A DNA stretch of 34,810 nucleotides from an archaeon (GTDB taxonomy: Archaea; Micrarchaeota; Micrarchaeia; Anstonellales; Anstonellaceae): assembly GCA_020056305.1 (NCBI GenBank), contig JAGVIA010000045.1, positions 1-34,810 of the forward strand, in the 5' to 3' direction. A model generated the notes under the pieces. The model was given only the letters and a program-made list of their open reading frames with translations. It searched no databases and had not been told where the DNA came from. This document shows positions 1,809 to 26,028 of this stretch, piece by piece. The position numbers and the translations under genes are program-made. Each line of letters begins with the position of its first letter. Within the stretch, counting starts at the first letter, position 1.

Positions 1809-2891
1809 TCATATCAGTTTTATCAGCCCGCGCCCCACTTCGGCAAGGTCTGCGCCGAATAGCGCGCCGGTCTGGCGCACAAATGTGAGAGTCACGGTGA
1901 GCGCGACAAGCGGGAATATCAGCGCCTGCAAAAGAAGAACTGGAATGAGCGTCGTTACCCTGTCAAGGAACAGGCTGATGTCATTTTCGGATGACTGGTA
2001 TTTGTAGCGCATTACAGCAACGTCAGAGGGGTTTGAGAAGGAAGGCGCCTGGTTGGGGTCCGAGGGGTTTGTGCTGGACGGGGGCCGGCTAGTGTCCTCC
2101 CATGGTGCGAGGTTTGCCATTACTTCCTGCCCGGCATTAGCGCACCACGCAGTCACGTGCGGAAGGGACGCCATCATCAGAAGGTAGGAGAATGGGAAAA
2201 CGAACGCAAAGCCTAGTGCGAATGCAGTGATGAAACCGCCAACGCCGCGCGTTAGGGGGAATGCGCGGAAGAGAAGCCCGATTGGCAGGAATATTGAGAG
2301 CATGGTGACATCAATCAGGCTCAGGAAGCGGTACTGGATGAAATTGAACATTATGGAATACACCATGTTGCCTCCGATAAGCTGCCAGAACGTGACCGGC
2401 CCGCCAAGATAGCCGCCGCTAAGGGGCTCAACGCCAATTATGTCTGTAGAAATGCTCTTTGCAAACTCATGGTAGAGGTTGATTGTCGCAATCGTCCAGA
2501 ACACGCGCTTTTGGCATGTTATGACTTCCGCAATGTATGCCTTCCCGATGAAAATAGGGTTGCAGATGTCAACTGCGTTGGGGGGCGGGGTGGGGTCGGC
2601 GCATGCTAGTATATCCGGGTTGGTGATGTAGGGGCCCATGGAAATCATCCACATGTCAGATGTTGCAATCATAAGGCTGGAGAGGAAGGCGTGCTGGAAC
2701 CCTATTGCAAAAAATGCGATGAGGAAGGTGACTCCGACCTGCAGGTACTCGCCCTTTGCCCACATCATGAGGTTCTGGATGTCAAACGCCTTGGAGAGCA
2801 TGTAAAGCAAAGTCGTGACAAAGAAGGAAAGCATGGCTATCATTATCACGAAAGCCTCCCATGAGGGGAATATTGCAAATGCGGCCATCAT
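1809..2891 (-). CDS. Polytopic membrane protein, array paralog 1
   Basis: Several hydrophobic segments. Shared motifs: IQNLMMWAKGEYLQ, FLPIGLLFRAFPLTRGVGGFITAFALGFAFVFP, C-terminal ALFGADLAEVGRGLIKLI. 4-bp overlap with the preceding gene. Confidence 0.85.
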   Translation of the reverse strand: MMAAFAIFPSWEAFVIMIAMLSFFVTTLLYMLSKAFDIQNLMMWAKGEYLQVGVTFLIAFFAIGFQHAFLSSLMIATSDMWMISMGPYITNPDILACADPTPPPNAVDICNPIFIGKAYIAEVITCQKRVFWTIATINLYHEFAKSISTDIIGVEPLSGGYLGGPVTFWQLIGGNMVYSIMFNFIQYRFLSLIDVTMLSIFLPIGLLFRAFPLTRGVGGFITAFALGFAFVFPFSYLLMMASLPHVTAWCANAGQEVMANLAPWEDTSRPPSSTNPSDPNQAPSFSNPSDVAVMRYKYQSSENDISLFLDRVTTLIPVLLLQALIFPLVALTVTLTFVRQTGALFGADLAEVGRGLIKLI

Positions 2892-3955
2892 ATCAGCCTT
2901 GTAAGGTTTGTAACGTCAATCTCCTCGCCAAACAGCCGGGACATCCCGCGCGTCATTTCTATGAGCACAATGAAGTTGAGCGCAGGGAGCGCCACTGCGG
3001 CAATGAAGTATATCACGACAAAAAACATCATATGGAGTATGGTGTTCATCATAAAATCGCTAAAGCCCACGAAAATCGCGTGCCCTGCCTGGATGGGAAG
3101 CACAAAGAGGGTGTGGAATATGCCCTCCAGAAGCGACTGCGAGCCTGTTGGGGGGTTGCCCGAAGTTACGTAGGTGCCCAAAGGCTGCTCCATTTTCAGG
3201 AACGGATCGAACATTATCATGTCGTTGAACACCAGGAAAATTGGGTAGAAGAGCAGCATGCTTATTGAAAAGCCGATGAGGCCGCCGCCAAACTGGCGGG
3301 TGGGCGTGATTGCCCGGAGAAGGATGCCAAGGGGCAGGAGGAAGTTTAGTATTGCAAGCAGGAGATATTCCACCATGACGCGCTGGATTAGCGTGATTAG
3401 GAATGAGATGACAAAGCCGCTCATGGCAAAGAACATCAGGTTTGATATTTGTGAGAATCCCTCCATGGCAACAGTGGTGGTGCCGATGCCAAGGGGCCGC
3501 ATTTCCCACACCACTTTTGTGCCAAGCCCTATCCAGAAATTCACCTTGACAAGCGCGATGAATACGACTTTGCCGAAATTGGTCACCTTCCAAAGATAAT
3601 CATCTGCGATTGCATATGCGGAGGGCGCGTGCGTGGAGTCGGGCACTGCCTGGTAATCCGGATTATTTGCGTAGCGCGGTGAGAATATTGTCATGTCAAA
3701 GCTGCACATGCCCCAGACCACGGTAATTACCGCAAGCATAAGCACGGTTATGTTTGCCATCTGCAATACCTCGTGCCGCGACCATGCGATCAGCTTCGCA
3801 TTGCGCAGGAACGAGGCGAACATGTACACTATTGCAAGTGCAAGCGAGCTTATCAGGATGGCAAGGAAAACAAGGCCGCGCCAGTCGCTGCCCAGTATTG
3901 TGCCAAATCCCAAAAGCGGGCTTCCGCCCGAACAGATTGCGTCCACGTATGGCAT
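2888..3955 (-). CDS. Polytopic membrane protein, array paralog 2
   Basis: Motifs NAKLIAWSRHEVLQ, FLLPLGILLRAITPTRQFGGGLIGFSISMLLFYP, LFGEEIDVTNLTRLI. ATG at 3955 (MPYVDAI) follows the paralog 3 stop; the ORF track start at 3976 would overlap. Confidence 0.85.
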   Translation of the reverse strand: MPYVDAICSGGSPLLGFGTILGSDWRGLVFLAILISSLALAIVYMFASFLRNAKLIAWSRHEVLQMANITVLMLAVITVVWGMCSFDMTIFSPRYANNPDYQAVPDSTHAPSAYAIADDYLWKVTNFGKVVFIALVKVNFWIGLGTKVVWEMRPLGIGTTTVAMEGFSQISNLMFFAMSGFVISFLITLIQRVMVEYLLLAILNFLLPLGILLRAITPTRQFGGGLIGFSISMLLFYPIFLVFNDMIMFDPFLKMEQPLGTYVTSGNPPTGSQSLLEGIFHTLFVLPIQAGHAIFVGFSDFMMNTILHMMFFVVIYFIAAVALPALNFIVLIEMTRGMSRLFGEEIDVTNLTRLI

Positions 3956-3959
3956 AATA

Positions 3960-5153
3960 TCACAGGAGTTTCTCAATTGCGCTCAGGTCTATTTCCGTGC
4001 CGAGGTATTTTGCAACCTCGCGGCTGAATGTAAGGGTCAGGAATATGTTGAAAATGGGCAGGATGATGCTTATCACCACGACAAAATAGGCAACGACGCT
4101 CATTGCAGCAAACACCGAGCCTGCCGCAAGGGGCAGGAGAGAGGATGCTAAGGCTGACGCGCCAAAATATTTGAGCAGCAAAAAGACAAAGCCGATGCCC
4201 ATCATGTTCTGCGGCTGCCCGACCATGTCATACAGGCCCTTTAGCTGCAATCTAAGCCCGGTGTTCCAGGAGCAGTCCCTTGAGGTCCCGCACAGGTTTG
4301 CGCTGGGGGTGAAGCTGAAGACACTACGGGGATTTAGTTCGTTTGCTAAGTCCATCTCCGTTGGCGGGCCAAAGTGCGTCGAGATGACATATGCGCTTAG
4401 GTTGAGCATGAGGGGGTAGATGAAAAAGAAGCCCATTGCAAGGCCGATAAGCGCATCGCCTGCGCCTTTCGTAAACCCATAGCAGCGCAGGAAAAGCCCT
4501 GCCGGGAACATGAGCACAAAGAGCGTGTTTTTGAAAAAGCAGAGCAAAAATTGGTGGGTGTACCACTCGGCAACGGATGCTATCATGACGTTTAGCAGCA
4601 GCCCGAGCGCATCGAATATTGGGCGGAACACTGCGGAGAGCTGGAATGAGAAGCCGATGATGCCTGCGGGGCGCAGGAAGACGGATTGGTTGCCGATAAG
4701 CGAAACGCCTGCGGTGACGCCGGTCATCATCATGAAATCGCGCGTCATTGTCAGCTGGATGATGCGCGAATAGCGCTGGGCAGTATCAATGTTGTTATAT
4801 CCAGCCAGCTCAAGCCCTGCTGTTGCCGCCATGAACAAAAAGAGGATGAGCATTGAGACTATGAGGCTGTAGAGAAACTCCTTTGTCCAGGATGTGACCT
4901 GCGGCCAGTTGAAAAAGCCGCCGAAAATGTATGCGAATGAAACGAATGCGAAATTCATTAGGAGCGCGATTATTGAAAGCGCAATCCAGCCGTCCTTGTC
5001 AATGCCAAAAATGTTTCCCGTGCAGTAGGTGGTCGGGTCTACCGCTGTTTGCAGAATGCGGTTGGAGCCTGAAAGGAATGCGTAGGCGGTTGGCAGGGCG
5101 CATGCTAGCAGAAGAATGGCACAGAGCGCCGGCCGGATTTTCCATTCCATCAT
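3960..5153 (-). CDS. Polytopic membrane protein, array paralog 3
   Basis: Motifs WPQVTSWTKEFLYS, MFPAGLFLRCYGFTKGAGDALIGLAMGFFFIYP, YLGTEIDLSAIEKLL. ATGA overlap with the upstream gene. Confidence 0.85.
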   Translation of the reverse strand: MMEWKIRPALCAILLLACALPTAYAFLSGSNRILQTAVDPTTYCTGNIFGIDKDGWIALSIIALLMNFAFVSFAYIFGGFFNWPQVTSWTKEFLYSLIVSMLILFLFMAATAGLELAGYNNIDTAQRYSRIIQLTMTRDFMMMTGVTAGVSLIGNQSVFLRPAGIIGFSFQLSAVFRPIFDALGLLLNVMIASVAEWYTHQFLLCFFKNTLFVLMFPAGLFLRCYGFTKGAGDALIGLAMGFFFIYPLMLNLSAYVISTHFGPPTEMDLANELNPRSVFSFTPSANLCGTSRDCSWNTGLRLQLKGLYDMVGQPQNMMGIGFVFLLLKYFGASALASSLLPLAAGSVFAAMSVVAYFVVVISIILPIFNIFLTLTFSREVAKYLGTEIDLSAIEKLL

Positions 5154-6415
5154 ATCAGCCTCGTAAGCCCCGCAATCTCAACATCACCGCCAAGAAGCGG
5201 CGAGAATGCTTTTATGCCTGCAAGGGTGGTCATGAGCGCAAAGAACGGCAACACCACGGAGAATATGAAAATCTTTGCGGTGTTGTCGGCAACGCCGTTT
5301 TCGCCGAACATCGAGTCGCTTTCAGAGCCTTCAAACGGGCTTGACCAGAAGCGCAGAAGCATCGTGGTCCAGCTGCGCGAGAGCGCCTGCGAGCCGCGCT
5401 GCCCGACATTGCCAAGCAGGCTGAAAAAATCAGCAAGCTCTGCCTCGCTAGGCGGGGTTGCGGGGGCGCAGAGGTTTGTGCCAAGCGTCCTTGGCGGGCT
5501 GCTTGGGTCAAGATACCCTCCAGGGCCGCGGAGCTGGGGCATTGGGGTTGCAGTTGGCAGCGTGTCAGTCACAGGGTTCACCTGGCCATCAGGATTGAAC
5601 TCATTTGACATGAGGGCGGTCGTGGTGCTGCTCCATCCGGTCGTCATTGTGAATAGGATTGCGCCAGAGAGCGCGTAGAAGAGCGGGAATGCGATGTAAA
5701 AGCCCAGCGAGAGGGCAATGAGCAGCCCGCCAAGCTTGCGCGTGTATGAGGGGATGCGTAATATGAGCCCCATGCCAAAGAGCACCGGGAAAAAGCCGAC
5801 TGCAAAAAAGTCAATGAAGAACTGCTGGAAGCGTATGGCCACCATGTTCTTTACCATGAGGTCAAAGAGAAGCGAGTACGCGTTTGCAATCATGCTGAAG
5901 CCTGCCAAAAAGCCCACGTTTGTGTTTGGGGATTTTGTGGTGGTGAGAGATTGGTCTGCGCCGATTGTTGCCATGAGTGAAACCCAGCTGTAGGCAAAGA
6001 GCAGGCTCTGCGTCTGCGACTCGCTGGTCTTGAAGAGGATGTCAAGATAGTCAATTGCAAGGCGCACATGGCATGGCCTGCCCACCCAAGTCATTTCCGG
6101 ATGCGACAGCTGCGCGGCATTGCTCTGGGCGCAGAGCGCAGACACGTATATTTGGTAATCATGCGTGCCAAGCAAACTTATGCGCTCAAGCAGGAAATCC
6201 AGCCCGCTGGGGATTAGCGCTGCGGCGAATATGATTATGATGAGCGAGAAGAAAATCTGGAACACTTCGCGCCGCGCCCATGCCTTGAGCTTCTCATCGC
6301 CAAGGAAAGTGCCTGCGAGATATGCGGACATTATCGTGAGCGTGGCTGCGGATAGCGTGACGCCCAGCACCGGGCCCCACCAGTCCTGCCCTCCAATGAG
6401 TGGGAATTCTACCAT
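5150..6415 (-). CDS. Polytopic membrane protein, array paralog 4
   Basis: Motifs DEKLKAWARREVFQ, FFPVLFGMGLILRIPSYTRKLGGLLIALSLGFYIAFP, LLGGDVEIAGLTRLI. Confidence 0.85.
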   Translation of the reverse strand: MVEFPLIGGQDWWGPVLGVTLSAATLTIMSAYLAGTFLGDEKLKAWARREVFQIFFSLIIIIFAAALIPSGLDFLLERISLLGTHDYQIYVSALCAQSNAAQLSHPEMTWVGRPCHVRLAIDYLDILFKTSESQTQSLLFAYSWVSLMATIGADQSLTTTKSPNTNVGFLAGFSMIANAYSLLFDLMVKNMVAIRFQQFFIDFFAVGFFPVLFGMGLILRIPSYTRKLGGLLIALSLGFYIAFPLFYALSGAILFTMTTGWSSTTTALMSNEFNPDGQVNPVTDTLPTATPMPQLRGPGGYLDPSSPPRTLGTNLCAPATPPSEAELADFFSLLGNVGQRGSQALSRSWTTMLLRFWSSPFEGSESDSMFGENGVADNTAKIFIFSVVLPFFALMTTLAGIKAFSPLLGGDVEIAGLTRLI

Positions 6416-6419
6416 TTGC

Positions 6420-7430
6420 TCACTCCAGCTTCTGGCTGAAGAATTTCAATATGCTCTTTATGAACGTGACAGTTATCACCATGGAAAGGGACGGCAGGAA
6501 AACCGCCTGGAAGATGACAAACGAGAGGCTGCGGAGCAGGAGGAACATTGATGCATTCCAATCGAAAAACGTGTTGTACGAGAGGGTATTGATGAGCTCT
6601 GTTTGCGTGCGGAGGTTCACCGGCGGCGGGTTTGGGTTTGCGGGTGTTGGGGCGGTGGCGTGCACTTCTGTGTCAAACAGCTCACCTACGTTGAAGAGCG
6701 ATGCCTGGTGTGAAATAAGATAAGTCATCACCTGCGAGTGCATCACATATGTGAATGGGAATATGATGTAGAAGCCAAGGGCGAATGCTATTAGGAACGC
6801 ACCGGCGTCGCGCGTGAAGGGGACTGCCCGCAGAAGGACCCCTACGGGAAGGACAAGGGAGAGCATGGTGCCGCGTATGAACTGGAGCCCTATCTGCTGC
6901 GCCATGAGGCTTGAGGTGAACGGGGAGAGGAATATGATCAGGAAATCATACGATTTTTCAAATGCTATGGCGCCCGGGAATATTGGAATCCTGATTCCCC
7001 ATGCGCCTGCGCCATATTTCCCATAGATGTTGCCCCAATATTGCCACTTGAGTTTAAAGAACTCGAGCTGCTGGACCAGCTGGAATGCGCCGACAAAGCC
7101 ATTCCCATCATCGTCGTCGTCATCGGAGTATATTATCTTGTTTAGGTATTCCTGCGAGATGTCAAAGGAGTTTGCGCCGGCAATCGCAACCGAGACTTCC
7201 TCCACAAAGCACGCGACTCCGAATATGGAGAGCATGATGACGGCAGAGACTCCGACCTGCCAGAGCTCGATTGTTGACAATGCCTCGTATTCCGGCTTGT
7301 GGAAGAACATTGCAGCCATGTATAGGAGCGCGATTGCGAAAATCATTACTGCTATTACTAGCCAGAAAAGGGAGGTGACCTCGGCAGGGGCGCCTGCAGG
7401 GCATGCCGCTAGCAATATTGATGGCATCAT
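6420..7430 (-). CDS. Polytopic membrane protein, array paralog 5
   Basis: Motifs PEYEALSTIELWQ, LVLPVGVLLRAVPFTRDAGAFLIAFALGFYIIFP. The C-terminal motif is lost (ends SILKFFSQKLE). Loop contains DDDDDD. Confidence 0.85.
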   Translation of the reverse strand: MMPSILLAACPAGAPAEVTSLFWLVIAVMIFAIALLYMAAMFFHKPEYEALSTIELWQVGVSAVIMLSIFGVACFVEEVSVAIAGANSFDISQEYLNKIIYSDDDDDDGNGFVGAFQLVQQLEFFKLKWQYWGNIYGKYGAGAWGIRIPIFPGAIAFEKSYDFLIIFLSPFTSSLMAQQIGLQFIRGTMLSLVLPVGVLLRAVPFTRDAGAFLIAFALGFYIIFPFTYVMHSQVMTYLISHQASLFNVGELFDTEVHATAPTPANPNPPPVNLRTQTELINTLSYNTFFDWNASMFLLLRSLSFVIFQAVFLPSLSMVITVTFIKSILKFFSQKLE

Positions 7431-8791
7431 TAGATCAGCTTTGATATTCCAAAGAGGCGGGGCTCGCCGCCAAGCGCGACTGAGATGTCGCGGAAAAATG
7501 TGATTGAGAGGATGATGGAATTCACAAGGAACAGTATGTTGAGGACAAGTATCTGCATTGTGGGCGTGATTTCATCTATAATGTATGCATAGAAGAACTC
7601 GGACCATGCGTTTGGGTCGAGGATGAATGTGCGGAATTGCCAGATTGCGCTTGCGGCTGTTTTTATCTTGCCCCACATGGTCGTTTCATAGTGCTCCTGG
7701 CTTGAGGAAAACCTGTCTATTATGTTCCAGGGCCTGTCAGTTGATGTCATGGTATTGGGGTTCTGGCTTTCGTCCCGGACATCTTCAAACGCGTGCTTCA
7801 TTGCCTGCACCTGCAAGTCCACCCTGTCTTCAAATCTTTGATCGAATAATGGATCATCGCCGATTTCATCGGGCTCCCTGCTGCATATCTCAATTACGTT
7901 TTCATAGCTGGCAAAATTGATTGGCACGATGTTCTGGAATATCTGTGCGTTTAGGAGAATGGACATCGGATAGACAAAATACGCCGCCAGGCAGAATGCT
8001 ATTATTGTGGAGCCGGTCTTGCGCGTGAGCGGGATTGCGCGAAAGAGCAGCCCGAATGGCAAAAAGACGGTAAGCACTGCCTCCTGTATGAACTGCAATA
8101 GGACTTTTTGGGAGAAAATTAAGCCAGCGCCCATTGCAATGTAATCCAGGAGCATGATGTGCGCCTCGCTCACAATGGTCATGCCGATAAGCGGCTGGAA
8201 TGAGAGGCGGGGGACTGTCACGATGGCGGTTATCTGCTGCGTTGAGAAGCCCATGGTGGAGAGGACGCCAAGCAGAAGCTCGATTCCTATCAGGTGGCGG
8301 TATGCAGTCAGCATTGGAGCAAGCATCACCCCCCGAAACGCGTTTGGCGAAAAATCGATGAAATCTGTCGGGCTTACCTTGCAGCCGAGGAAATATTGCG
8401 CCTGCGTGAATACCGGGTAGAGGTTCGGGTCGTCAAAATGGGGGTTGACAAAATTCTCAGTGCAGAATGTGCCGCCTGGCCCAGCCGGGGTCAAAAAGCC
8501 CATCACGATGTAATTCAGGGTTATGATTGAGGCTATTGTGATTAGTATGATGAATGCTGAGAGGGAGTGCTCGTAAAGCTCGCCTTTCACCCATGCCTTT
8601 ATGGAGGGCATGGAGAGCGCCTCGCCTGCCATGAATGCAAGGGCGGCAAATGCGATGCCCACGAGAAGCGCGGCAATTGCCATCGGCGTCCAGGTGAGGT
8701 CTGCAGGCAGGTAGTTGAGGTTGGTCTGCGGGGGAGTGGCGAATGCGGGCTGCAAAAGCAGCAGGAATGCGATTGCAAGTAGTAATGCCAC
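7430..8791 (-). CDS. Polytopic membrane protein, array paralog 6 (first gene of the operon)
   Basis: Signal-like N-terminus MALLLAIAFLLLLQPAFA (GTG start). Motifs MPSIKAWVKGELYE, FLPFGLLFRAIPLTRKTGSTIIAFCLAAYFVYP, ALGGEPRLFGISKLI. Confidence 0.85.
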   Translation of the reverse strand: MALLLAIAFLLLLQPAFATPPQTNLNYLPADLTWTPMAIAALLVGIAFAALAFMAGEALSMPSIKAWVKGELYEHSLSAFIILITIASIITLNYIVMGFLTPAGPGGTFCTENFVNPHFDDPNLYPVFTQAQYFLGCKVSPTDFIDFSPNAFRGVMLAPMLTAYRHLIGIELLLGVLSTMGFSTQQITAIVTVPRLSFQPLIGMTIVSEAHIMLLDYIAMGAGLIFSQKVLLQFIQEAVLTVFLPFGLLFRAIPLTRKTGSTIIAFCLAAYFVYPMSILLNAQIFQNIVPINFASYENVIEICSREPDEIGDDPLFDQRFEDRVDLQVQAMKHAFEDVRDESQNPNTMTSTDRPWNIIDRFSSSQEHYETTMWGKIKTAASAIWQFRTFILDPNAWSEFFYAYIIDEITPTMQILVLNILFLVNSIILSITFFRDISVALGGEPRLFGISKLI

Positions 8792-8839: not shown

Positions 8840-11800
8840 ATGCGTATGAGAGGCGGCCTCACGCTCATTATTGTGCTTCTTGCCATCAGCCCCCTCTTTG
8901 CAATAGAGCCTTTCTGCGACGCATGCTACAAGGCAAATATCGAGCTTTCGCCTGACATGGAGAACACGATACTGACGGCAAAAGTCAAATTCAATAACAT
9001 AACCTATTTCTATGATGTGAACGGGCAGCTCATGCCTGTTGCGCCTGGCATGGAAGACTGGCCAAAGGACGCTGCCGGCAATCCAGTGCCGCTCGGGGTG
9101 GAGAGAATCACGCTTGAAGTGGATGAAGTGCAGAATCCGGATGTGTATTTCGAGTTCGAGGATTACAAGGCATCGGATGACGATGCAGTGGTGCTGTGCG
9201 ACCCGTCTTTAGGAGATGAGCACGGGGTTGCGACTTGCAGTTTCAGGACTTTGCGTCCAAATGTGCCAAACCCTGCAGGGATTGATTTCGTTAATCTCCG
9301 AAAATGCATATATGCGCAAGCGCGCTTTCCCGGCAAGCAGGAGGACGGGTATTTCATAAAGCCGGCAAGCAAGGGAGTCATTTTGTGCCCTGCGGAGAAC
9401 AGCGCGATTTCCGGATTGAGCATCTCGATTGAGAATGCGGTACGCAATAATATCGGATTCTGCATTCCGATGCTAATTATCGGAGGCATGCTGGTTGCCG
9501 GGATGTACTATTCGGGGAAAAACCCGCTCTCGCTGTTTGACATCACCGTGCCGAGGCTGCCCCATGTCAAGGCGCTTCGGATCGGCAGGACGAACCTTCC
9601 ATGGCAGATGTCGGCAAAGGGCGCGATGAACGATAGGCTTATTGCAATGACTGGCAAGGTGCAGGCTGCCGCATTTGGAAAGTTCTCAAAAAGGGACAGG
9701 GTGAGAGGCGCGCTTCTCAAGAGCGAAATACAAGGCATACTGAAGAGGAAAATAAGCGAAGACGACAAGATGAAACTCATCTCTGCTGCGATTACGCGCT
9801 ATGGCTTTAACATAAATGACAGGTGGGTGGGCGAGGCGTTTGGCGCGCTCATGCAAAGCGAGCAGATGAAGATGCAGTTCAAGCGGGACGAGAAGGCGGT
9901 AGAGGAAGGCGAAATTTCATGGCATGGAAAAATATTTTCGAAGGGCAAGCTCAATTACAAAGGAAAAAAGTACCCAAATCCTATCGGGTGGACCCTCAAC
10001 CGCCTCAACGATCTTGAAAAGCCGCTGCAGAGGGTGCCTTTTTTCGGAAGCAGTCTTATTGGCAGGAGCCAGCAGGCGCTTGTGCGCCTTGCTGGAGCAA
10101 GGCAGGGCAATGTGGCTGTGCGCCGCGCGCTGCTCAAGCAGACTGCGGCAGAGGCGCTTAGGGCAACGGGTGCGGGAAAGGGCTCTGGAAAGCTTGCGGC
10201 ATTTGTGAACCGGAATTCTGCCGATAAAGTCAGGATGGGCAGCCTGCCAGACGTGCTTGGCAGGGTTGCAAACGAGATGGCGCTTACTGCGGACTTGGCG
10301 CACAGGCAGACGCTTGCAAAGCTCCATGAGCTCATTGAAGGCGGGATAGACCGGAAGCTTGCGGAAAAAGAGCTGGAACTGAAGAGGCTTATTGCATCTG
10401 CAGGGCTAAAGGCTGCAGGAGTCGCACGGCTTGAGAAAGAAATTGATGAAATTAAGCGGCTGAAGGATAAGCTTGCAGAAAGGGTTGCGGCTGCAAGCAG
10501 GGGCGCAAAAGGCATGGCAGACGCCAATGACCGCACCAAAACAATGATGGATGACATGGTCAGATTTGCAGTGGACAACAAAATTGATGTGGTGATGGGC
10601 GGCGAGAAAATTGTGAGCGGAGGGAAAGCCAATCGCGGAGAAATTGCAAAAATACTTGGCAGGATAGAGAGGATTACAGATCTTGTGACAAAGGACGGCT
10701 ATGTTGAGTTTAATGCAAAGACGGGTGAATTCCAGCTGAAAAAAGGCGCGGTGTTTGACCCGGACACGCTGCTTGGGGCAAGCAAAAACGCAAGAGGGGT
10801 GCGCGAAGGCGGGGCATATGGCAACATGCTTGATGAGCTTAAGGGTGCGCGTTTCCTGGAATTTTCACAGCTTCTGCGGGAAGGGAGAAGCGTTGCGGAT
10901 ATTTATGCCGTAAAGATTGCAGGAGAGAAAGGAGTCAAGATAGACAGATGGGAGGACTTATTTGGCAACGCAAGGGATCCTGCATCAAGGGCCAGGCTGG
11001 AAAACGGCAAGCTGAGAATGGATTTGCTTGGCGAGGTTGCCGATGCAATGGAGAGGAGGATTCGCCAAGAGGTCAAGTTCGCATACTTATTGACAGGCCC
11101 TGACAAGAGTTTGACAGGCAAACAGCTTCTGGAGAATGCAGGCAGGAATGCGGATGGGCTGTTTGGCAATATCCAGCTTAACAAAACCACTGACTTTGGC
11201 TTGCGGCACGCGCTTTCATCGCAGGTGAAGCTCGGATGGAGCGGAGTGGAGGATGCATTTGGCAGGCAGGTGCAGATGCTCCTGCGCTCGTTTGACTTTT
11301 TCTATGGCAAGAGCTTTGAGAGCCTGATGTCAGGCTACAACAGGACAGCGGAGAGAAACATGCTCACGTTTGCGCTGATTGAGGAGAATGCAAAAAGGCT
11401 TGGGCACGGCTCGGAGCGGCTGGATGCAAAAAGCTACAAGGACCTAATTGACAAGGGCATTACATATGGGGACTTGAGAAAGGGAATGTGGCTCTCGTCT
11501 ATTGATGGCACGTACACGCCGTTTTCCAAGGACAGGATGGGCGAGTACCTAATTTCGCAATATTCGGAGAAAATGATAAACAGCTACGTGCTCATACGCG
11601 ACAAGAGCGGCAAGTACGTGCATGGTGACCCGCAAAAAGACCAAAGGGTGGCAAGCGCGATACGCGAGGCAGACCTTGCCATTGACCCTGCAAAGAAGAT
11701 AGCGATTGGGGAGAAGCTGCTGGGGATAACACGCGACAAGGATGGCAAGGCAGTGGCAGGCAAAGGCTTGCTTGACGTGACCTCGATTGATGAGTACATG

Positions 11801-14041
11801 AAAAAAGACGCCGGGATGATTAAGCGCATGAGCTTTGGCCTCTCATCATTTGGAGAGCGGGTGCAGGTCGGCGGGCTGGACAAGATAAACCGGGGGCTCA
11901 TGGACTGGTACAGCGCACAGCTGCAGACAAGGCTTGCGCTCTCAAAGCTTGACAATTTCATAAACAATGCTCCGGGCGCGGGCGACAGGTTTGACATCAT
12001 GAGCGAGAAGTACAGGAACTTAAAGGATGTTGAGGGCGAGCTTCTTTCTGCGCGCAGCATGGAGAAGAAGGCAAGGATGGCAGGCGAGGCTGCGGCAGCG
12101 GCAATCGCACATGGGAACGTGGATAGGCTCATGTCGGACAGAAAAGACCTCATGGCAAACGTGTCGCACAACGAGCTTGACCGCTCGCTTCTTGCGGTGC
12201 GCGGGCAGATGCTTAATTTTTACAACATCACTGAATCGTCTGTCATGAGGGACCCGCGCATTGCAATAGGCGCAGGGTACGGCATACAATACGGCCCGAT
12301 GGTCGGCTACCAGACAGGGCAATTCGTTTACGAGAGGCCAAGCATGATATTCGGGCCCGGGCTGCTGCCCGGGGATGCGACTGCGAACTGGTTGATGAGG
12401 CCCACGTACTGGACGGCGGTCATGTTTTCCCAGATTGCAAGGCCTTTCTACACTAGCATCATTGGATACCCGAGCGTGTATGACAATGACATGTTCTATG
12501 GGGCAAGCATGCGCAAGGGCAATATCCGCAGGGCAGTTGGCGAGGCGCTCTCCATCACACAGAACCTTGAGATATTCCACCGCTTCACGCTGCCAAGGAT
12601 ACGGAAAAAGGAGGAGTATTTCACAGAGGAAGGGTTCAGGATTACCGGAGAGGGATGGTATGGCAAGAGATTCCTTGCGCCAATAACATTCAGGCGCGAT
12701 GTCGAGGGAGTAGGCACGGCGGAAAACGAGGAGCGCAGGCTGCAGCTTCTTGGGATTCAGTCGGAAGCCGGGCAGGATGTCAAGAGGAGGATGCTTGGAA
12801 GCCATGGCTTGCAGAGGACCGAGATGAGAATGGAAATTGAGCGCGCGCAGGCGGAAATGGACAGGTATGCGAGGGGAAATGCCGATTTGCGAACGACCAG
12901 GGATGAGTTAATTAGAGTGCTTGCTGCCGAACGGTCCACCCTGACGGCAGACCAGATAAAAGACCTCAATGATGCGATTGCGCGCAGATCTAAGGAGCTT
13001 CACGACAATGAAGCGGCAATTAGGCGCGAAACTTCTGCGCGCAAGGAAGCCGAACAATATGCAGAGCGCCCACTTGAAAAAATGCCCGGGGTGTTTGGCA
13101 GGCTCTTCCAGCCGGGCTATTATAATATTTTGAACCTCGGTGGCTATGATATTGCATTGGAGGGAAGCAGGATGAGGGGCTTTGACCTCTATGCGCCATA
13201 CCACAAGTCTGGCATCTGGAAGCCGCCAGTGCCTGGCATGCTGGACATAACACCGAGCGTGCCTGGCGTGAGCGAGAGCGAGTGGAGAATGTTCCCCCGC
13301 GTTGCGGCGCACGTTATGGCTAACTCAACGCTTGCAGAACTCACAAGGTTCAAAACGTATGGATTGGGCGCAAATGGGGATGTAGAGGCAAAAGGGGACT
13401 GGTATAGGTCTCCGGAGATGGAGAGCAACAGGGACGTGTATAGGCACGAGGATTCCCCCATATTGCGGCTTGCAAAGCTTGAGAGCGAGCGCATGGGATA
13501 CAGCTTCCTTAACAGCCCGTTTAGCATTCCGCTATCGCCACTTGCAGGAGCAATCTGGTTTGGGGCCGTACGCAAAACTTCATTCATAAGAAACCAGGCA
13601 TCGGCGCATGGCACTGCAGGCGCCTGGAGCGGCACCATACCGACAGACATGGACCCGGGCGGCGTTGCACTTGCAGCGCGCCAGGATGCGGTTGACCCGC
13701 GCGTTGCAGCAGGCGCCCAGATTTTGCCCCATGAGCCAGGCACGATGGGCTCGCATGCAATAAGGAGCATGAATGACAGGATCAACGGGATTGTGCAGGC
13801 GGATTATTATCGGGCAAGGGAAATGTGCCCGGTGCACAGGACATACAGCGCATTTGGGTCAGAGTGCCCGCAGTGCTCGCATGCAAAGGCAAAGCCGCTG
13901 ACAGGCGATGAGACTAAATACCGCAACTGGCTTGACACTTACATGAGGCAGGCGGAGGAGACGGGCAGGATACGCGAGCAGATGAGAAGGGACGAGAGGG
14001 TGGCTGAGCGCTACAGGAAGATGGCTGAATCGGCATACTGA
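8840..14041 (+). CDS. Giant secreted/membrane-anchored protein (1733 aa) with long helical/coiled-coil regions and a C-terminal Cys/His zinc-ribbon-like motif
   Basis: Signal peptide MRMRGGLTLIIVLLAISPLFA; hydrophobic segment IGFCIPMLIIGGMLVAGMYY; long charged region; CPVHRTYSAFGSECPQC near the C-terminus; TATA upstream. Confidence 0.85.
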   Translation: MRMRGGLTLIIVLLAISPLFAIEPFCDACYKANIELSPDMENTILTAKVKFNNITYFYDVNGQLMPVAPGMEDWPKDAAGNPVPLGVERITLEVDEVQNPDVYFEFEDYKASDDDAVVLCDPSLGDEHGVATCSFRTLRPNVPNPAGIDFVNLRKCIYAQARFPGKQEDGYFIKPASKGVILCPAENSAISGLSISIENAVRNNIGFCIPMLIIGGMLVAGMYYSGKNPLSLFDITVPRLPHVKALRIGRTNLPWQMSAKGAMNDRLIAMTGKVQAAAFGKFSKRDRVRGALLKSEIQGILKRKISEDDKMKLISAAITRYGFNINDRWVGEAFGALMQSEQMKMQFKRDEKAVEEGEISWHGKIFSKGKLNYKGKKYPNPIGWTLNRLNDLEKPLQRVPFFGSSLIGRSQQALVRLAGARQGNVAVRRALLKQTAAEALRATGAGKGSGKLAAFVNRNSADKVRMGSLPDVLGRVANEMALTADLAHRQTLAKLHELIEGGIDRKLAEKELELKRLIASAGLKAAGVARLEKEIDEIKRLKDKLAERVAAASRGAKGMADANDRTKTMMDDMVRFAVDNKIDVVMGGEKIVSGGKANRGEIAKILGRIERITDLVTKDGYVEFNAKTGEFQLKKGAVFDPDTLLGASKNARGVREGGAYGNMLDELKGARFLEFSQLLREGRSVADIYAVKIAGEKGVKIDRWEDLFGNARDPASRARLENGKLRMDLLGEVADAMERRIRQEVKFAYLLTGPDKSLTGKQLLENAGRNADGLFGNIQLNKTTDFGLRHALSSQVKLGWSGVEDAFGRQVQMLLRSFDFFYGKSFESLMSGYNRTAERNMLTFALIEENAKRLGHGSERLDAKSYKDLIDKGITYGDLRKGMWLSSIDGTYTPFSKDRMGEYLISQYSEKMINSYVLIRDKSGKYVHGDPQKDQRVASAIREADLAIDPAKKIAIGEKLLGITRDKDGKAVAGKGLLDVTSIDEYMKKDAGMIKRMSFGLSSFGERVQVGGLDKINRGLMDWYSAQLQTRLALSKLDNFINNAPGAGDRFDIMSEKYRNLKDVEGELLSARSMEKKARMAGEAAAAAIAHGNVDRLMSDRKDLMANVSHNELDRSLLAVRGQMLNFYNITESSVMRDPRIAIGAGYGIQYGPMVGYQTGQFVYERPSMIFGPGLLPGDATANWLMRPTYWTAVMFSQIARPFYTSIIGYPSVYDNDMFYGASMRKGNIRRAVGEALSITQNLEIFHRFTLPRIRKKEEYFTEEGFRITGEGWYGKRFLAPITFRRDVEGVGTAENEERRLQLLGIQSEAGQDVKRRMLGSHGLQRTEMRMEIERAQAEMDRYARGNADLRTTRDELIRVLAAERSTLTADQIKDLNDAIARRSKELHDNEAAIRRETSARKEAEQYAERPLEKMPGVFGRLFQPGYYNILNLGGYDIALEGSRMRGFDLYAPYHKSGIWKPPVPGMLDITPSVPGVSESEWRMFPRVAAHVMANSTLAELTRFKTYGLGANGDVEAKGDWYRSPEMESNRDVYRHEDSPILRLAKLESERMGYSFLNSPFSIPLSPLAGAIWFGAVRKTSFIRNQASAHGTAGAWSGTIPTDMDPGGVALAARQDAVDPRVAAGAQILPHEPGTMGSHAIRSMNDRINGIVQADYYRAREMCPVHRTYSAFGSECPQCSHAKAKPLTGDETKYRNWLDTYMRQAEETGRIREQMRRDERVAERYRKMAESAY

Positions 14042-14052
14042 TGGTTGGTCGC

Positions 14053-16356
14053 ATGAAAAATATTTTCTTTGCATTGCTGGTAATTTCACTTGTGCTTTTG
14101 GCAGGCTGCCTTGTGAACGATAGCATGCGGATGCGAAACCAGCTTTCATCCGCTCGCGCAATAGACATATTCAAATCAAATGAGGCCGGGCTAAATGAGC
14201 CGGAGCCTGGACCGACGCCGTGCAGCTGCATGTACTGCGACCGGCAGACTTATTACGTGGACAGCAACGGGAACATTATGCCGCTTGGGCCATTTGCAAG
14301 CCTGTTTGCGGAAAGCTCGCTATTTAATGGAAAATGCTATTTTGAGCAGTGCAACGTGACCACTTTCAATGATACAATGGCAACTTACCTCGAAGACCCG
14401 GTTAATGTTGAAAAGATTCCGCGCTATTTCGGATACGGGCAGGGCGGCTCTTTCCTTGAGTTTGGCGAGGCAGTAAAATATTGCAAGTCTAGCGTTGGCT
14501 ATTCAGGCAAATGGATGATAGGGGCGCATGAAGCGCCGCCTGCAATCCCGTCAAAGCGAAGGGCGCAATGCATGCTTGAGAAAAACGTGATTCCAGTCTA
14601 CATATATTATACAAAAGGCGAGGCGATTGACGAGGCACGCGCAAGGGAGATTGGGCAGAGGCTAAATGGCGTGGGGCCCGTCATTATTTCAACAGAGGTG
14701 GAATTTGACCCTGCAAAAATAGAGGAAGTGAAGCGGCAGGTCATTGCAATAGATCATGAGTGCCCGGACTGCCTTGTGGCAGTGACGCCAAGACTAAATG
14801 ACTTCCCTTCCCTTGATGCGCTCTTTTTTGCAGACCCTGCTGTAGCAGATAAAATTGACATTGTGGGGCAGGGAGTCGTGCTAAACGACAACCCAAGCAC
14901 GTGCAACATCGAAACGCTGATTGGCGAGAGGATGTACTTTTCAAGAAGGATATTGCAGAGGTATGCAAAGCCATCTATTTGGCTTTACTTTGGGATAAGC
15001 CCGCAGCAGCGCGACCCGGCAGCAGGAGTGCAATGCACCTGGAGCGACATTGATGCTGCGCGTGGTTACACATACCTTTTCCAGATGAGCCAGGCGCTTG
15101 TAAGCTCAGGAGTTATCGGGGTGCTCAATTACCAGTATGCTGACGGGCTTGACCCAAAGCCATGCGTTGGCGCCGCATGCGATTTCGGGCTTGTGGAAAT
15201 TAATCCGATTACGCACCAGGCAGAGCAGAAGCTGCCGCAGTTCCGCGGCTGGTTTGAGGGATGCCGGAAGTATGTCGGAAGCGATGGCGGCGTGGAGAAC
15301 GCGCAAAGCCCTGTTGTGTATTCGCGGAACGGGAAGGGGAATGTGTGCACTTTTGGAGGCAGCAACAGGATGCTGCAGAGCTTTGTGCAGCTTGAGCCGG
15401 GCGTGAATCCTTATAACACGATTCCGATGGGAGAGGACAACATAGGATACCAGTGCCGCGCGTGCATAAGCTATGATGTGGATCCGCCGTCGCTTTTGGC
15501 AGCAAGCTCCGCGCCGGTGGACCCGCCATGGTGCACATTGTATTACCCGGTGCTTGACGCGAACCCTGACAGGTATGACATTGACCCGGTGCTGATGAGG
15601 GCGATAATCGGGCAGGAATCAGACTTCGCGAACTGCGACCCGGACAAGACTGTGAGTTACGTCGTTGACACGCCGGAGAACCGCACGCTGTGCAGCAATC
15701 CGCTTGGCCTCAAGGAAAGCTCGGAAATAATCGATGTCGGAGAGGGCAGGGCGCTTGTTGACAGGTTCTGCCCGGGATTTGACATCGAGCGCAGATATTA
15801 TGACAGGGACGGCGTAATCAAGGGATGCCTTCCCATAAGCTCATTCTCCGGCAGCCCGAACCTCGGCGATTGCATCACGTGCGCCATGGGCATGGCGCAG
15901 TGCACGGATTACCCGGGATGGATTTATGAGGCAAACCCGGCAGTGCCCATGCCGGCAGAAGTGAAGCTTTGCAGCGGGGAAAAATACAATCCGTTCGACC
16001 CGAAAGACACGTTCTGCTGCGGCGCGTACAAGATTGCGTCATTCTACCAGGAGGCGCAGCGTTTTGTGGACAATAATCCTTTAATAGATTATTCCCCGGA
16101 TGAGAAGGAATGGTATACTGCGTATTTTGCAGTGCAGATGTACCACGATGGCTATCGCACCGTGGGAAGCGACTACAACCTGTATCTTTCGCAGCGCTTA
16201 TTGGAAGAGGATGGGTATTGCGCAGGCAACCTGCGTTATGTGAGCTATTTGCAAGAGTGCCTTGGGAGGAAATACGCTTACAACGTGCTGAGCAAGTACC
16301 GCGCGCTCATGGACATTGATAAGTGCAGGGGCGTGACCAATGAGTGCAGGAGCTGA
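14053..16356 (+). CDS. Lipoprotein with central TIM-barrel-like region and C-terminal lytic-transglycosylase/SLT-like domain
   Basis: Lipobox-like LLAGCL after the signal (MKNIFFALLVISLVLLAGC). SLT-like motifs in order: DPVLMRAIIGQESDF, CAMGMAQCTDYPGW, NPFDPKDTFCCGAYKIASFYQEA, WYTAYFAVQMYHDG. ATG at 14053 favoured over 14041, which overlaps the preceding stop. Confidence 0.75.
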   Translation: MKNIFFALLVISLVLLAGCLVNDSMRMRNQLSSARAIDIFKSNEAGLNEPEPGPTPCSCMYCDRQTYYVDSNGNIMPLGPFASLFAESSLFNGKCYFEQCNVTTFNDTMATYLEDPVNVEKIPRYFGYGQGGSFLEFGEAVKYCKSSVGYSGKWMIGAHEAPPAIPSKRRAQCMLEKNVIPVYIYYTKGEAIDEARAREIGQRLNGVGPVIISTEVEFDPAKIEEVKRQVIAIDHECPDCLVAVTPRLNDFPSLDALFFADPAVADKIDIVGQGVVLNDNPSTCNIETLIGERMYFSRRILQRYAKPSIWLYFGISPQQRDPAAGVQCTWSDIDAARGYTYLFQMSQALVSSGVIGVLNYQYADGLDPKPCVGAACDFGLVEINPITHQAEQKLPQFRGWFEGCRKYVGSDGGVENAQSPVVYSRNGKGNVCTFGGSNRMLQSFVQLEPGVNPYNTIPMGEDNIGYQCRACISYDVDPPSLLAASSAPVDPPWCTLYYPVLDANPDRYDIDPVLMRAIIGQESDFANCDPDKTVSYVVDTPENRTLCSNPLGLKESSEIIDVGEGRALVDRFCPGFDIERRYYDRDGVIKGCLPISSFSGSPNLGDCITCAMGMAQCTDYPGWIYEANPAVPMPAEVKLCSGEKYNPFDPKDTFCCGAYKIASFYQEAQRFVDNNPLIDYSPDEKEWYTAYFAVQMYHDGYRTVGSDYNLYLSQRLLEEDGYCAGNLRYVSYLQECLGRKYAYNVLSKYRALMDIDKCRGVTNECRS

Positions 16357-22181: not shown

Positions 22182-22239
22182 GCGCCCTGCGACAATGCTT
22201 GAACTTTAGCCCAAATGCTATGCAAAATTAGTGGTTTTG

Positions 22240-25200
22240 ATGGACGAAAAATCTGAATATTCGCATGGGAAAATTACCGACAAGCCTGTTGAGTCCGAGC
22301 TTCGCGCATCCTACCTGGATTATGCCATGTCAGTAATAGTGGGCAGGGCGCTGCCTGACATTCGTGACGGGCTAAAGCCAGTGCACCGCCGCATCCTTTT
22401 TGCCATGCATGAGCTTGGGAATTCGCATGACAAGCCGTACAAGAAGTCCGCGCGCGTAGTAGGCGAGACTTTAGGAAAATTCCATCCGCACGGCGATGTC
22501 GCTATATATGATTCGATTGTGCGCATGGTGCAGGATTTCTCATTGCGCTATCCGCTCATTGACGGGCAGGGGAATTTTGGATGCTTTACAAAGGATACCA
22601 AGGTCCAGCTGGCAGATGGGCGAAGCATAAACTTCGGCGAGCTTGTAGATGAGGAGAGCGCTGGAAAGGAAAATTATACGTTTACAGTAGATAGGGAGGG
22701 TAGGATAAAGATAGGTAAAATCACAAAGCCGCGCCTGACTATCAAGAATGCCGAACTTATGAAAGTTGTGCTGGACAGCGGGGATGAGATACGCTGCACG
22801 CCAAACCACAGGTTCATGCTCCGAACCGGAGAGTACAAGGAGGCCCGGCATTTGCAGGCTGGGGACTCACTTATGCCCCTGTACACAAAGCTCTCTTCTA
22901 AAGAACCGGACCCGGATTTGGCAGGATATGAAATGATAATGCAGCCTGCAAATGGCAATTGGGAATACTCGCATCGGCTGGCTGACGAATGGAATATTGA
23001 GCATCGCGCATACGCCAAATCAGCGGGAAGAATAAGGCATCACTTGGATTTCAACAAACTGAACAATAATCCGACTAACATTAGGAGGATGAAATGGGGG
23101 GAGCACTGGAAGACCCATTACCTGCAAGCGTCGGAAAAACACAGAAACGACAGCAATTATAGGGAAAAGTTGGCTGAAGGAAGAAGGCGCTTCTGGAACA
23201 ACGATGCAAATCGAGACAGATATTCTGAAAGGTTAAGCAAAAGAAACAGAGAAAACTGGTCAAAATCAGCCTATAGGGCAGGGAAGAGAGAGCAGCTAAG
23301 CAAAATAAACAAGGAATACATTGCGGCACATCCAGAGAGAAAACAGGAATTTAGCCTGAGGGCGACCAAGACGCTCAAAAGACTATGGCAAGACCCGCGT
23401 TATCGAAGCTTCATGCACCAGAAAATCATAAAGGCAAACAAGAACCATCTTTCGAATAAAACAGGGAAGCTGAAATTCCTTGCAATATGCAAACATGTCC
23501 TGGCTCAAGGCAATGTTATTTGCCAGGAATCATACGGACAGATGCGAAATAAGGTTTATCCTTATGGCCATGCAACAACGTGGAAAAAGGGGTTGCAAAA
23601 GTACTTTGAAAACAATGTTTCGCTAGTTCTATGCGAATTGAATGGCAATCATAAGGTCGCAAGAACCGAATTTCTGGCTGAACGCGAGGACGTTTATGAC
23701 CTTACTGTGAATGGAACGCACAATTTTGCCCTTGCCTGCGGCGTGTTTGTCCACAATTCTGTTGACGGGGACGCTGCAGCTGCCATGAGGTATACTGAAA
23801 TCCGGCTTGGCAGGATGGCAGAGGAGATGCTCTCGGACATTGACATGGAGACTGTGGATTTTGCGCCGAACTTTGACGGGAGCCTCAAAGAGCCTCTTGT
23901 GCTTCCTTCCAAAATACCGAATTTGCTCATAAACGGCTCATCAGGCATTGCGGTTGGAATGGCGACAAACATACCTCCGCACAATTTGACCGAAGTGATT
24001 GACGGCATGGTTGCGCTAATTGACAAGCCTGCACTTGCGTTTGAAGAATTGATTGGCATTGTGAAGGGGCCTGACTTTCCAACAGGCGGGATGATTGTCG
24101 GCAGGCGGGGCATCATAGAGGCATATGCAAAAGGCAGGGGCACAATACGCGTTAGGGGAAAGGCGGAAATCGTTGACAAGGGAGACAGGAAGCGCATCGT
24201 GATTAAGGAAATACCGTACATGGTGAACAAGGCTGAGCTTATTGAAAAAATCGCAACGCTTGTGAAAGACAAGCAGATTGAGGGCATTTCAGACATAGCC
24301 GACAGGTCTGACAAGGACGGGCTTGAAGTGGTGATTGACCTTAAGCGGGATGCTAATGCAGATGTGGTGCTAAACCAGCTGTATGCGCGCACCGCGCTTG
24401 AGGGCACGTTTGGGATAATGAGCATCGCGCTTGTGAACAACGAGCCAAAGACATTGCCGCTTGCAGACATGCTCAGGGAATTCATAAACCACAGGCGTCA
24501 AGTCGTGCGCAGGAGATGCATGTTCGAGCTTGCGCGCGCAGAGGAGAAGAAGCACGTGCTTGAGGGAATCAAGATTGCGCTTGCGAACATTGATGGCATC
24601 ATAAAGACTGTGAAGGCCGCGGAGAACACACATGTTGCGCGAGACGGGCTAATGGCAGTGTTCGGGCTGACCGAGAAGCAGGCGGATGCAATCCTTGAGA
24701 TGAAGATACAGAGGATTGCAAGGCTTGAGACAAAGAAAGTGATTGACGAGCATGCCGAGCTTGTGAAAAAAGCCGAGTGGCTAAATGCCGTGCTTGCCGA
24801 TGAGAACAGGATATTTGGAATCATAAAAGACGAGCTTGCGGAAATTCGGAAAAAGTACGGGGATGGAAGAAAGACCGAGATTGTGGATGATGAGGAAGAG
24901 ATTGAGATCGAGGACCTTATTCCGGATGAGCAGGTTGCAATCATTGTCACTGAGAACAATTACATAAAGAGGATGCCTGTCGCCGAATACAAGGCGCAGC
25001 GGCGGGGCGGAAAGGGAATTATCGGCGCCGACACAAAAGAAAGTGACATTGTAAAGGACATCATTATCGCATCCACGCATGATTATTTGCTGGTGTTCAC
25101 TGACAAGGGGAATGTGCACTGGCTCAAGGTGTACAGGGTGCCCCAAGCTGGAAGGTATGCCATTGGAAAGGCGATTGTGAATCTGCTTTCAATTGAGAAA

Positions 25201-26028
25201 GAGGGCATTGCCGCATTCATTCCAGTGTCAAAATTCAAGGAAGGCGAGTTCCTTGTGATGGGGACAAAGAACGGCATAACAAAGAGAAGCGACCTGCTGG
25301 ATTACTCGAGGCCGAGGAAGGGGGGCATAATTGCGATTACGCTGCGCGAGAATGACAAGCTCATTGATGTGCTAAAGACAGATGGCAAGAGAAAAATCGT
25401 GCTTGCAACAGCGGACGGGCAGGCGATTAGGTTTGCTGAAGATGAAGTGCGCGAAATAGGCAGGACGGGACAGGGAGTCATAGGAATTCGCATGAAGGAG
25501 AAGGACGAGGTTGTCGGCATGGTGCTCGATGATGCGCCAGCAATACTCACCGTGTGCGAGAACGGGTATGGAAAGCGCACGGCAATTGAGGAATACAGGG
25601 AGCAGGGAAGGGGCGGTTCTGGCGTAATCAACATAGTGGTGGATGAGAGGAACGGCAAAGTGGTTGGCGTGCTTTCCGTGAGGGAAGATAGTGAAATTAT
25701 TGCAATGAGCTCGCGGGGCAAAGTGATACGCATGCCGGTTGCTGACATATCGGTGATTGGCAGGAACACAAAGGGAGTGCGAATCATGAAGTTGGAAGAA
25801 GGGGAGAAAGTGGTTGCGGTCGAGAGGCTGGCAAAAGAAAACGGGAATGGAGAGGAAAAGAAGGAAGAGGCAAGTGATGCGAAGGAAGGAAATGAAAGCT
25901 CTGCTGAAAAAAAATCGCAGCCGCCTGCAGATGAAGGGAAAAAACCCGCGGGCAATGAAAAGGAAGGGCAGGGGAATGCGGATGTGAAGGAAGAGGGCAA
26001 AAAAACTAATTCTTCTTCTGGCAGCTAA
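22240..26028 (+). CDS. gyrA: DNA gyrase subunit A precursor containing an in-frame intein
   Basis: Exteins carry [41 protein letters not shown] / [17 protein letters not shown], and C-terminal beta-pinwheel repeats (e.g. [11 protein letters not shown]). Confidence 0.97.
22582..23757 (+). mobile_element. Intein (392 aa) in GyrA with HNH-type homing endonuclease domain
   Basis: Starts [13 protein letters not shown] (block A); [27 protein letters not shown] (block B-like); ends [20 protein letters not shown] followed by Ser (F/G blocks). Endonuclease-like [28 protein letters not shown] resembles HNH. Flanking exteins join as GQGNFG-SVDGD. Confidence 0.93.

Follow-up and report, generated by a model that had tools for sequence, protein, structure and literature searches.

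In this work we describe six tandem genes for polytopic membrane proteins in a member of Candidatus Micrarchaeota (genome of 1.38 Mb in 108 contigs), on contig C25, whose 34,810 nucleotides are called the window below. The six proteins are paralogs, their order and position-specific descent are conserved, the set is retained throughout the phylum, and in several families it is linked in one operon with an ATPase and pilins. We consider it likely that the six are non-interchangeable membrane-channel or platform subunits, in the role of VirB6/CedA, of a Ced-related type IV secretion-like machine, and that they probably assemble into a hetero-oligomer.

The six genes lie on the minus strand and are numbered here in the order of transcription. 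They are g1 (7430-8791, 453 amino acids, AA; a signal-peptide-like N-terminus followed by five core transmembrane segments, TM), g2 (6420-7430, 336 AA, the shortest subunit), g3 (5150-6415, 421 AA), g4 (3960-5153, 397 AA, also signal-peptide-like at its N-terminus), g5 (2888-3976, 362 AA) and g6 (1809-2891, 360 AA, 5 TM). Going from g1 to g6 the spacing is -1, +4, -4, -17 and -4 nucleotides, i.e. the genes overlap or abut. Three signatures are common to the array: (W/A)xKxExxQ after TM1, a central LPxGLLxRxxPxTRxxG, and a GxEIxxxxLxRLI tail. At the C-terminus, GADLxEIGRGLIKLI is the hallmark of position g6. The initial annotation had described six tandem minus-strand genes with overlaps or gaps of about 4 nucleotides, and three shared motifs; the first claim holds on the ORF coordinates (gaps of -17 to +4) and all three motifs are real in the alignments. 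It had also proposed that the tail was lost in the fifth paralog (6420-7430, g2), and this point is corrected: g2 of the aligned relatives also lacks the tail, whose absence is a feature of position g2 and not a loss in the window genome. In the alignment the other five proteins are 20-24% identical to g6. Position-specific profiles from which the window was excluded recognize the other five window genes with 34-120 bits (E 1e-9 to 8e-36), compared with at most 8 bits for reversed-sequence controls. Because profiles of other positions recognize each of them in this way and the reversed controls do not, g1 to g6 are true paralogs, beyond chance resemblance. Pfam and NCBIfam searches of the six proteins gave nothing significant, and no PDB sequence relatives of the array profile were found.

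The array family is found throughout the phylum. The first alignment of the six window proteins was too divergent to be used as a query for the genome-contig scan; a family profile of 36 members matches 263 of 301 Micrarchaeota genomes, and 88 of 96 when only good genomes are counted. Three families (f22-f24) mostly lack the array family or have one copy only. Of the named relatives that carry the same gene, isolate LFW-35 among them, nearly all bear the label Candidatus Micrarchaeota, a phylum that the NCBI taxonomy calls Microcaldota. A scan of the whole collection with the g6 tail motif as sole query found no clearly non-micrarchaeal genome with this motif, a few matches being labelled merely 'archaeon' and one ainarchaeum. 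The order g1-g6 is kept in the approximately 30 complete arrays sampled, and position profiles label the genes g1 to g6 in sequence, both within the window's order and in further families, f12, f14, f16 and f17 among them. For the most distant families (f20, f21) these profiles are too weak for labelling and the proteins are placed by a tree. Within the window's order, a tree of 117 array proteins shows six groups, one per position. A second tree, of 94 proteins, among them members of distant families and 11 single-copy paralogs, requires 7 label changes against a minimum of 6 and a mean of 63.7 for shuffled labels; g2, g3, g5, g6 and the single-copy set are each separated from the rest by a single branch, and two changes fall on g1 and three on g4, the least cleanly grouped position, some of the branches concerned being weak. 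The six-gene synteny is conserved phylum-wide, and this position-specific descent across families indicates that the six-way duplication is older than most of the phylum. Finally, two genomes of one genus were compared for g2-g6 (g1 was left out), with a dS of about 1 and a dN of 0.3-0.4; the resulting dN/dS of about 0.3-0.4 indicates purifying selection.

Many genomes of the window's order, and some outside it, carry a second six-gene array (type B), whose subunits have long insertions or N-terminal extensions and reach about 1100 AA. In the type B arrays at loci L039, L068, L069, L070, L145, L146 and L147, inserts between TM4 and TM5 accompany an N-terminal extension; the large inserts of B-type g3 were placed between TM4 and TM5 by domain matches, and hmmalign insert coordinates are unreliable at the ends of the longest B-array proteins. 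In addition, most genomes examined have one single-copy relative of the array genes, whose profile aligns with the array profile over about 290 positions (hhalign, 99.9%, 1e-37). In the window genome, array A and a single copy (contig C67) are present, and an array B was not found. In genome G001 about 6 kb separate the single-copy channel gene and a Cdc6/Orc1 gene (L061:8360-9379 and 14986-16263), and a similar Walker motif is found close to pilins on contig C72 of genome G000 (L065:2005-3342). A location of the type IV secretion system (T4SS) near the replication origin has been reported in Patescibacteria (PMC12102498). The single-copy-type ATPase is followed by a 231-AA winged-helix-like protein (L058:4211-4906; EAP30/Vps36, E 5e-5, below cut-off), and proteins of about 240 AA occupy the equivalent place in L106, L108 and L110.

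Partner genes adjoin the array in several families. In f13, f20 and f21, two 2-TM proteins of about 275 AA come after it and then, in most cases, an ATPase of about 505 AA. Three loci (L121, L122, L126) have this array-TM2-TM2-ATPase operon, and in two others (L125, L140) two or three VirB2-like pilin genes lie directly upstream of g1, giving a pilins-g1..g6-TM2-TM2-ATPase operon. The arrangement is not uniform: the 2-TM pair follows the array with no recognizable ATPase in L123, neither the pair nor the ATPase is present in L124, and in genome G123 an ATPase-sized protein at the ATPase position has no detectable ATPase similarity. The single paralog has a similar locus of its own, separate from the array, with the order pilin-single paralog-2TM-ATPase (L128-L131, L133) or single paralog-2TM-ATPase (L106). 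In the window's own order no ATPase or pilin adjoins the array, which has separated there from the ATPase/pilin operon. Both types of ATPase nevertheless occur in the window genome. That of contig C5 (L115:7984-9552), accompanied by a 2-TM protein, groups with the array-linked ATPases at 100/100, and the one on contig C67 (L058), beside the single copy, falls outside this group. The ATPases match AAA_10, DUF87/HerA and TraG models, and their best NCBIfam matches are CedD (5e-20) and CedB (1e-19), far below the curated cut-offs. T4SS_pilin and TrbC/VirB2 models recognize the pilins, for the most part weakly; T4SS_pilin PF18895 is above cut-off in 4 of 8 genomes, and the pilin set aligns with VirB2 of R388 (TrwL; hhalign, 76%, 2e-5). 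Three tandem VirB2-like pilin genes are present at L107:5095-6164 and at L140:15020-16283.

Some candidate partners were rejected. The idea that the 2-TM proteins correspond to the VirB4 N-terminal domain or to VirB8 found no Pfam, NCBIfam, PHROGs or hhalign match, and because no profile matches it is an inference only. A neighbour of about 900 AA considered as an ATPase is leucyl-tRNA synthetase, and SecD/SecF, found beside g6 in some relatives, is a local and not a general neighbour. The same genomes have other T4SS-like loci, possibly mobile elements (L112-L114): L112 and L113 have a 316-AA protein of 6-7 TM together with a VirB4-like ATPase (806-1046 AA), and L113 and L114 have small pilin-like proteins of 2-3 TM; the TM proteins of these loci match the array profile weakly (46%, 2e-4).

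The proposed kinship of the array proteins with known channels rests on CedA. In 20 whole Micrarchaeota genomes all 16 matches of the CedA profile NF041796 fall in array or single-copy genes, and in 14 control genomes matches were obtained only in Sulfolobus acidocaldarius and Bacillus subtilis. The strongest match reaches 27 bits (E 8e-7) and does not attain the curated cut-off of 330 bits; in the window, g2 matches at 6726-6944 with E 0.018. With every score far below the cut-off for CedA, the array proteins are classed here as CedA-like and not as the CedA equivalog of Sulfolobales. No direct similarity to the TrbL/VirB6 proteins of bacteria could be detected: the TrbL/VirB6 model PF04610 had no match above cut-off in six genomes, single VirB6 sequences of R388/R751, including TrwI of R388, did not match the array, and a Foldseek search of the PDB with an AF2 model of g6 (all-helical, pLDDT 80, pTM 0.73) gave no match below E 0.3. 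The VirB6/TrbL-type channel reading proposed in the initial annotation is supported at the level of the family and operon, by the CedA profile, the ATPase and the pilins, and not by a direct match to the bacterial proteins or to a PDB fold. The polytopic layout of VirB6/CedA, with about 5-7 TM, conserved TM regions and a central loop in the cytoplasm, is shared by the array proteins, which have five core TM segments by hydropathy and the conserved RxxPxTRxxG loop. The N-terminus of the array proteins weakly resembles pilins (hhalign, 28%, E 6e-4; 0.23 for the reversed control) and the array profile also picks up pilins; the N-terminus of CedA is known to resemble the pilin CedA1 (PMC9905601). 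Net charge is positive in the RxxPxTR loop and negative in the two loops that precede TM3 and follow TM4. These charges, and the signal-peptide-like starts of g1 and g4, fit a topology with the N-terminus outside, the C-terminus inside, and the variable loops and B-array inserts outside, which is inferred from sequence alone.

Upstream of g1, in the opposite direction, the window encodes a giant membrane-anchored protein (8840-14041, plus strand, 1733 AA), composed of a signal peptide, an exterior part of about 180 AA, a TM at 205-223, an interior part of about 1500 AA and CxxH/CxxC near the C-terminus. It is followed by a lipoprotein-like partner (14041-16356, plus strand, 771 AA) with a conserved lytic-transglycosylase-like motif, RAIIGQESDF. 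The two genes co-occur across families and are divergent from array A in several; the giant adjoins or is near array A in f1, f6 and f11, and a giant with a related TM-proximal segment adjoins or is near some B arrays (L071, L147). We regard both proteins as likely accessory parts of the array machine, any enzymatic activity being a guess at the level of the motif: the lipoprotein has no Pfam or PHROGs match and no PDB sequence relatives, and a lytic-transglycosylase fold of its C-terminus could not be assessed, the single-sequence model (pLDDT 38) being unusable. Further along the window, gyrA (22231-26028, plus strand) carries an intein (PF14890, protein residues 126-509); in relative G005, the gyrA that neighbours gyrB (L064:13579-16131, 850 AA) has the length of an intein-free gene.

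A membrane platform would, as in Ced and T4SS, be the site of pilin assembly and the passage through which the ATPase drives DNA or protein; here the six different subunits would build it, as a hetero-oligomeric ring or platform. Five core TM helices are predicted in each subunit, with the N-terminus outside and the C-tail inside. The N-terminal hairpin, weakly similar to VirB2-type pilins, would bind the pilus, contacts with the HerA/VirB4/CedB-like ATPase and the 2-TM partner(s) may be made by the cytoplasmic RxxPxTR loop and the C-tail, and the variable TM2-TM3 and TM4-TM5 loops would face outward. DNA, as in Ced, or protein would be moved to or from another cell. The hetero-oligomeric membrane assembly suggested by the initial annotation is supported by the fixed retention of six genes, and oligomerization itself is not shown; topology, substrate, direction, host contact and stoichiometry are likewise inferred or not shown. 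Several observations weigh against the channel reading. In the window's own order the array does not adjoin an ATPase or pilin, the CedA, CedB and CedD scores are far below cut-off, there is no TrbL or PDB match, and the protein at the ATPase position in G123 lacks ATPase similarity. Moreover, the homopentamer precedent (PMC12857230) has no obvious fit with six distinct subunits, and it follows from the known VirB6 homopentamer either that symmetry differs in Micrarchaeota or that not all six subunits are in the ring. A bolder reading, which we would neither favour nor discount, is that of an obligate six-paralog VirB6/CedA hetero-oligomer, already present in the ancestor of most Micrarchaeota and operating where these cells touch a partner cell, with a second copy of enlarged ectodomains in many genomes; its ring could possibly be six-fold instead of five-fold.

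The alternative that survives best, although we find it rather less convincing than a Ced-like channel, is that of a machine derived from a T4SS and co-opted for protein secretion or cell tethering on a host or partner cell, not for moving DNA. The giant TM protein would then be the tether and the lipoprotein the part that opens the wall or glycan. Support comes from the giant-lipoprotein pair, which in several families is transcribed divergently from array A, from the giants adjoining or near some B arrays, from the T4SS of Patescibacteria, mostly devoid of a relaxase and thought to be co-opted in epibionts (PMC12102498), and from the VirB4-like domains of nanohaloarchaeal giant proteins (PMC10266531). 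However, the ATPases are nearest to the DNA-moving CedB/CedD and no effector has been identified; this model departs from the Ced-like channel in substrate only. A second alternative, which we consider unlikely, is a set of six separate CedA/VirB6 channels, each a homo-oligomer, that share one ATPase but differ in the substrate, partner or pilin they serve. In its favour, genomes contain several pilin genes, and many of those in the order possess a complete type B array, whose subunits are extended, but about 30 arrays retain all six genes, in one order and overlapping or abutting, and the unit of duplication is the six together, not single subunits. Lastly, an unrelated family of polytopic transporters or lipid-modifying proteins, VirB6-like solely in hydrophobic layout, would account for the absence of Pfam, TrbL and Foldseek matches, but is very improbable given the operon with a CedB-like ATPase and pilins, the specific CedA profile matches and the failure of the reversed controls.

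The Ced-related machine that we favour shares with Ced of Sulfolobales (CedA/CedE, CedA1, CedB/CedD) and Ted of Thermoproteales a pilin, a CedA/VirB6-like channel and a HerA/VirB4-like ATPase (PMC9905601, PMC11868833); the Ced components given in PMC11868833 include no relaxase. It differs from them by having six channel paralogs instead of one or two, by a separate 2-TM protein before the ATPase and by scores well below the CedA/CedB equivalog cut-offs. The nearest precedents for a six-paralog platform are CedA and its paralog CedE in Saccharolobus, proposed to form a hetero-oligomer (PMC11868833), and the tandem virB6 paralogs of Rickettsiales, 4 in Anaplasmataceae and 5 in Rickettsiaceae, some with surface-exposed hydrophilic extensions (PMC7648143). 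The latter resemble the array as strongly diverged paralogs in one operon, some with long extensions, in host-associated cells; the Micrarchaeota array is archaeal, CedA-like and of six copies, and the resemblance is probably convergent, an inference made without kinship data. The T4SS of Patescibacteria combines VirB2-like pilin arrays, VirB4 and VirB6 in ultrasmall, mostly epibiotic cells (PMC12102498), but it is bacterial, and no six-gene virB6 array is reported in the relevant sections of that work. VirB6 of R388 (TrwI) and DotA of Dot/Icm likewise sit at the base of the pilus or channel as its central platform in the membrane, but form a homopentamer of one subunit (PMC12857230), and the array has no sequence match to TrwI. 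In the open-access literature searched (preprints and most subscription journals were outside the scope), there is no description of the array or of such a machine in Micrarchaeota, and it looks like a six-part form, hitherto undescribed, of the conjugation-like type IV transfer machine.

How DPANN archaea and their hosts exchange material is an open question, for which a phylum-wide six-subunit machine is a concrete candidate. The stoichiometry of VirB6 and the roles of its subunits become testable with six genes of fixed identity, to be compared with the bacterial homopentamer. Finally, the parallel with Rickettsiales suggests, as an inference, that multiplication of VirB6 may recur in small, host-associated cells.
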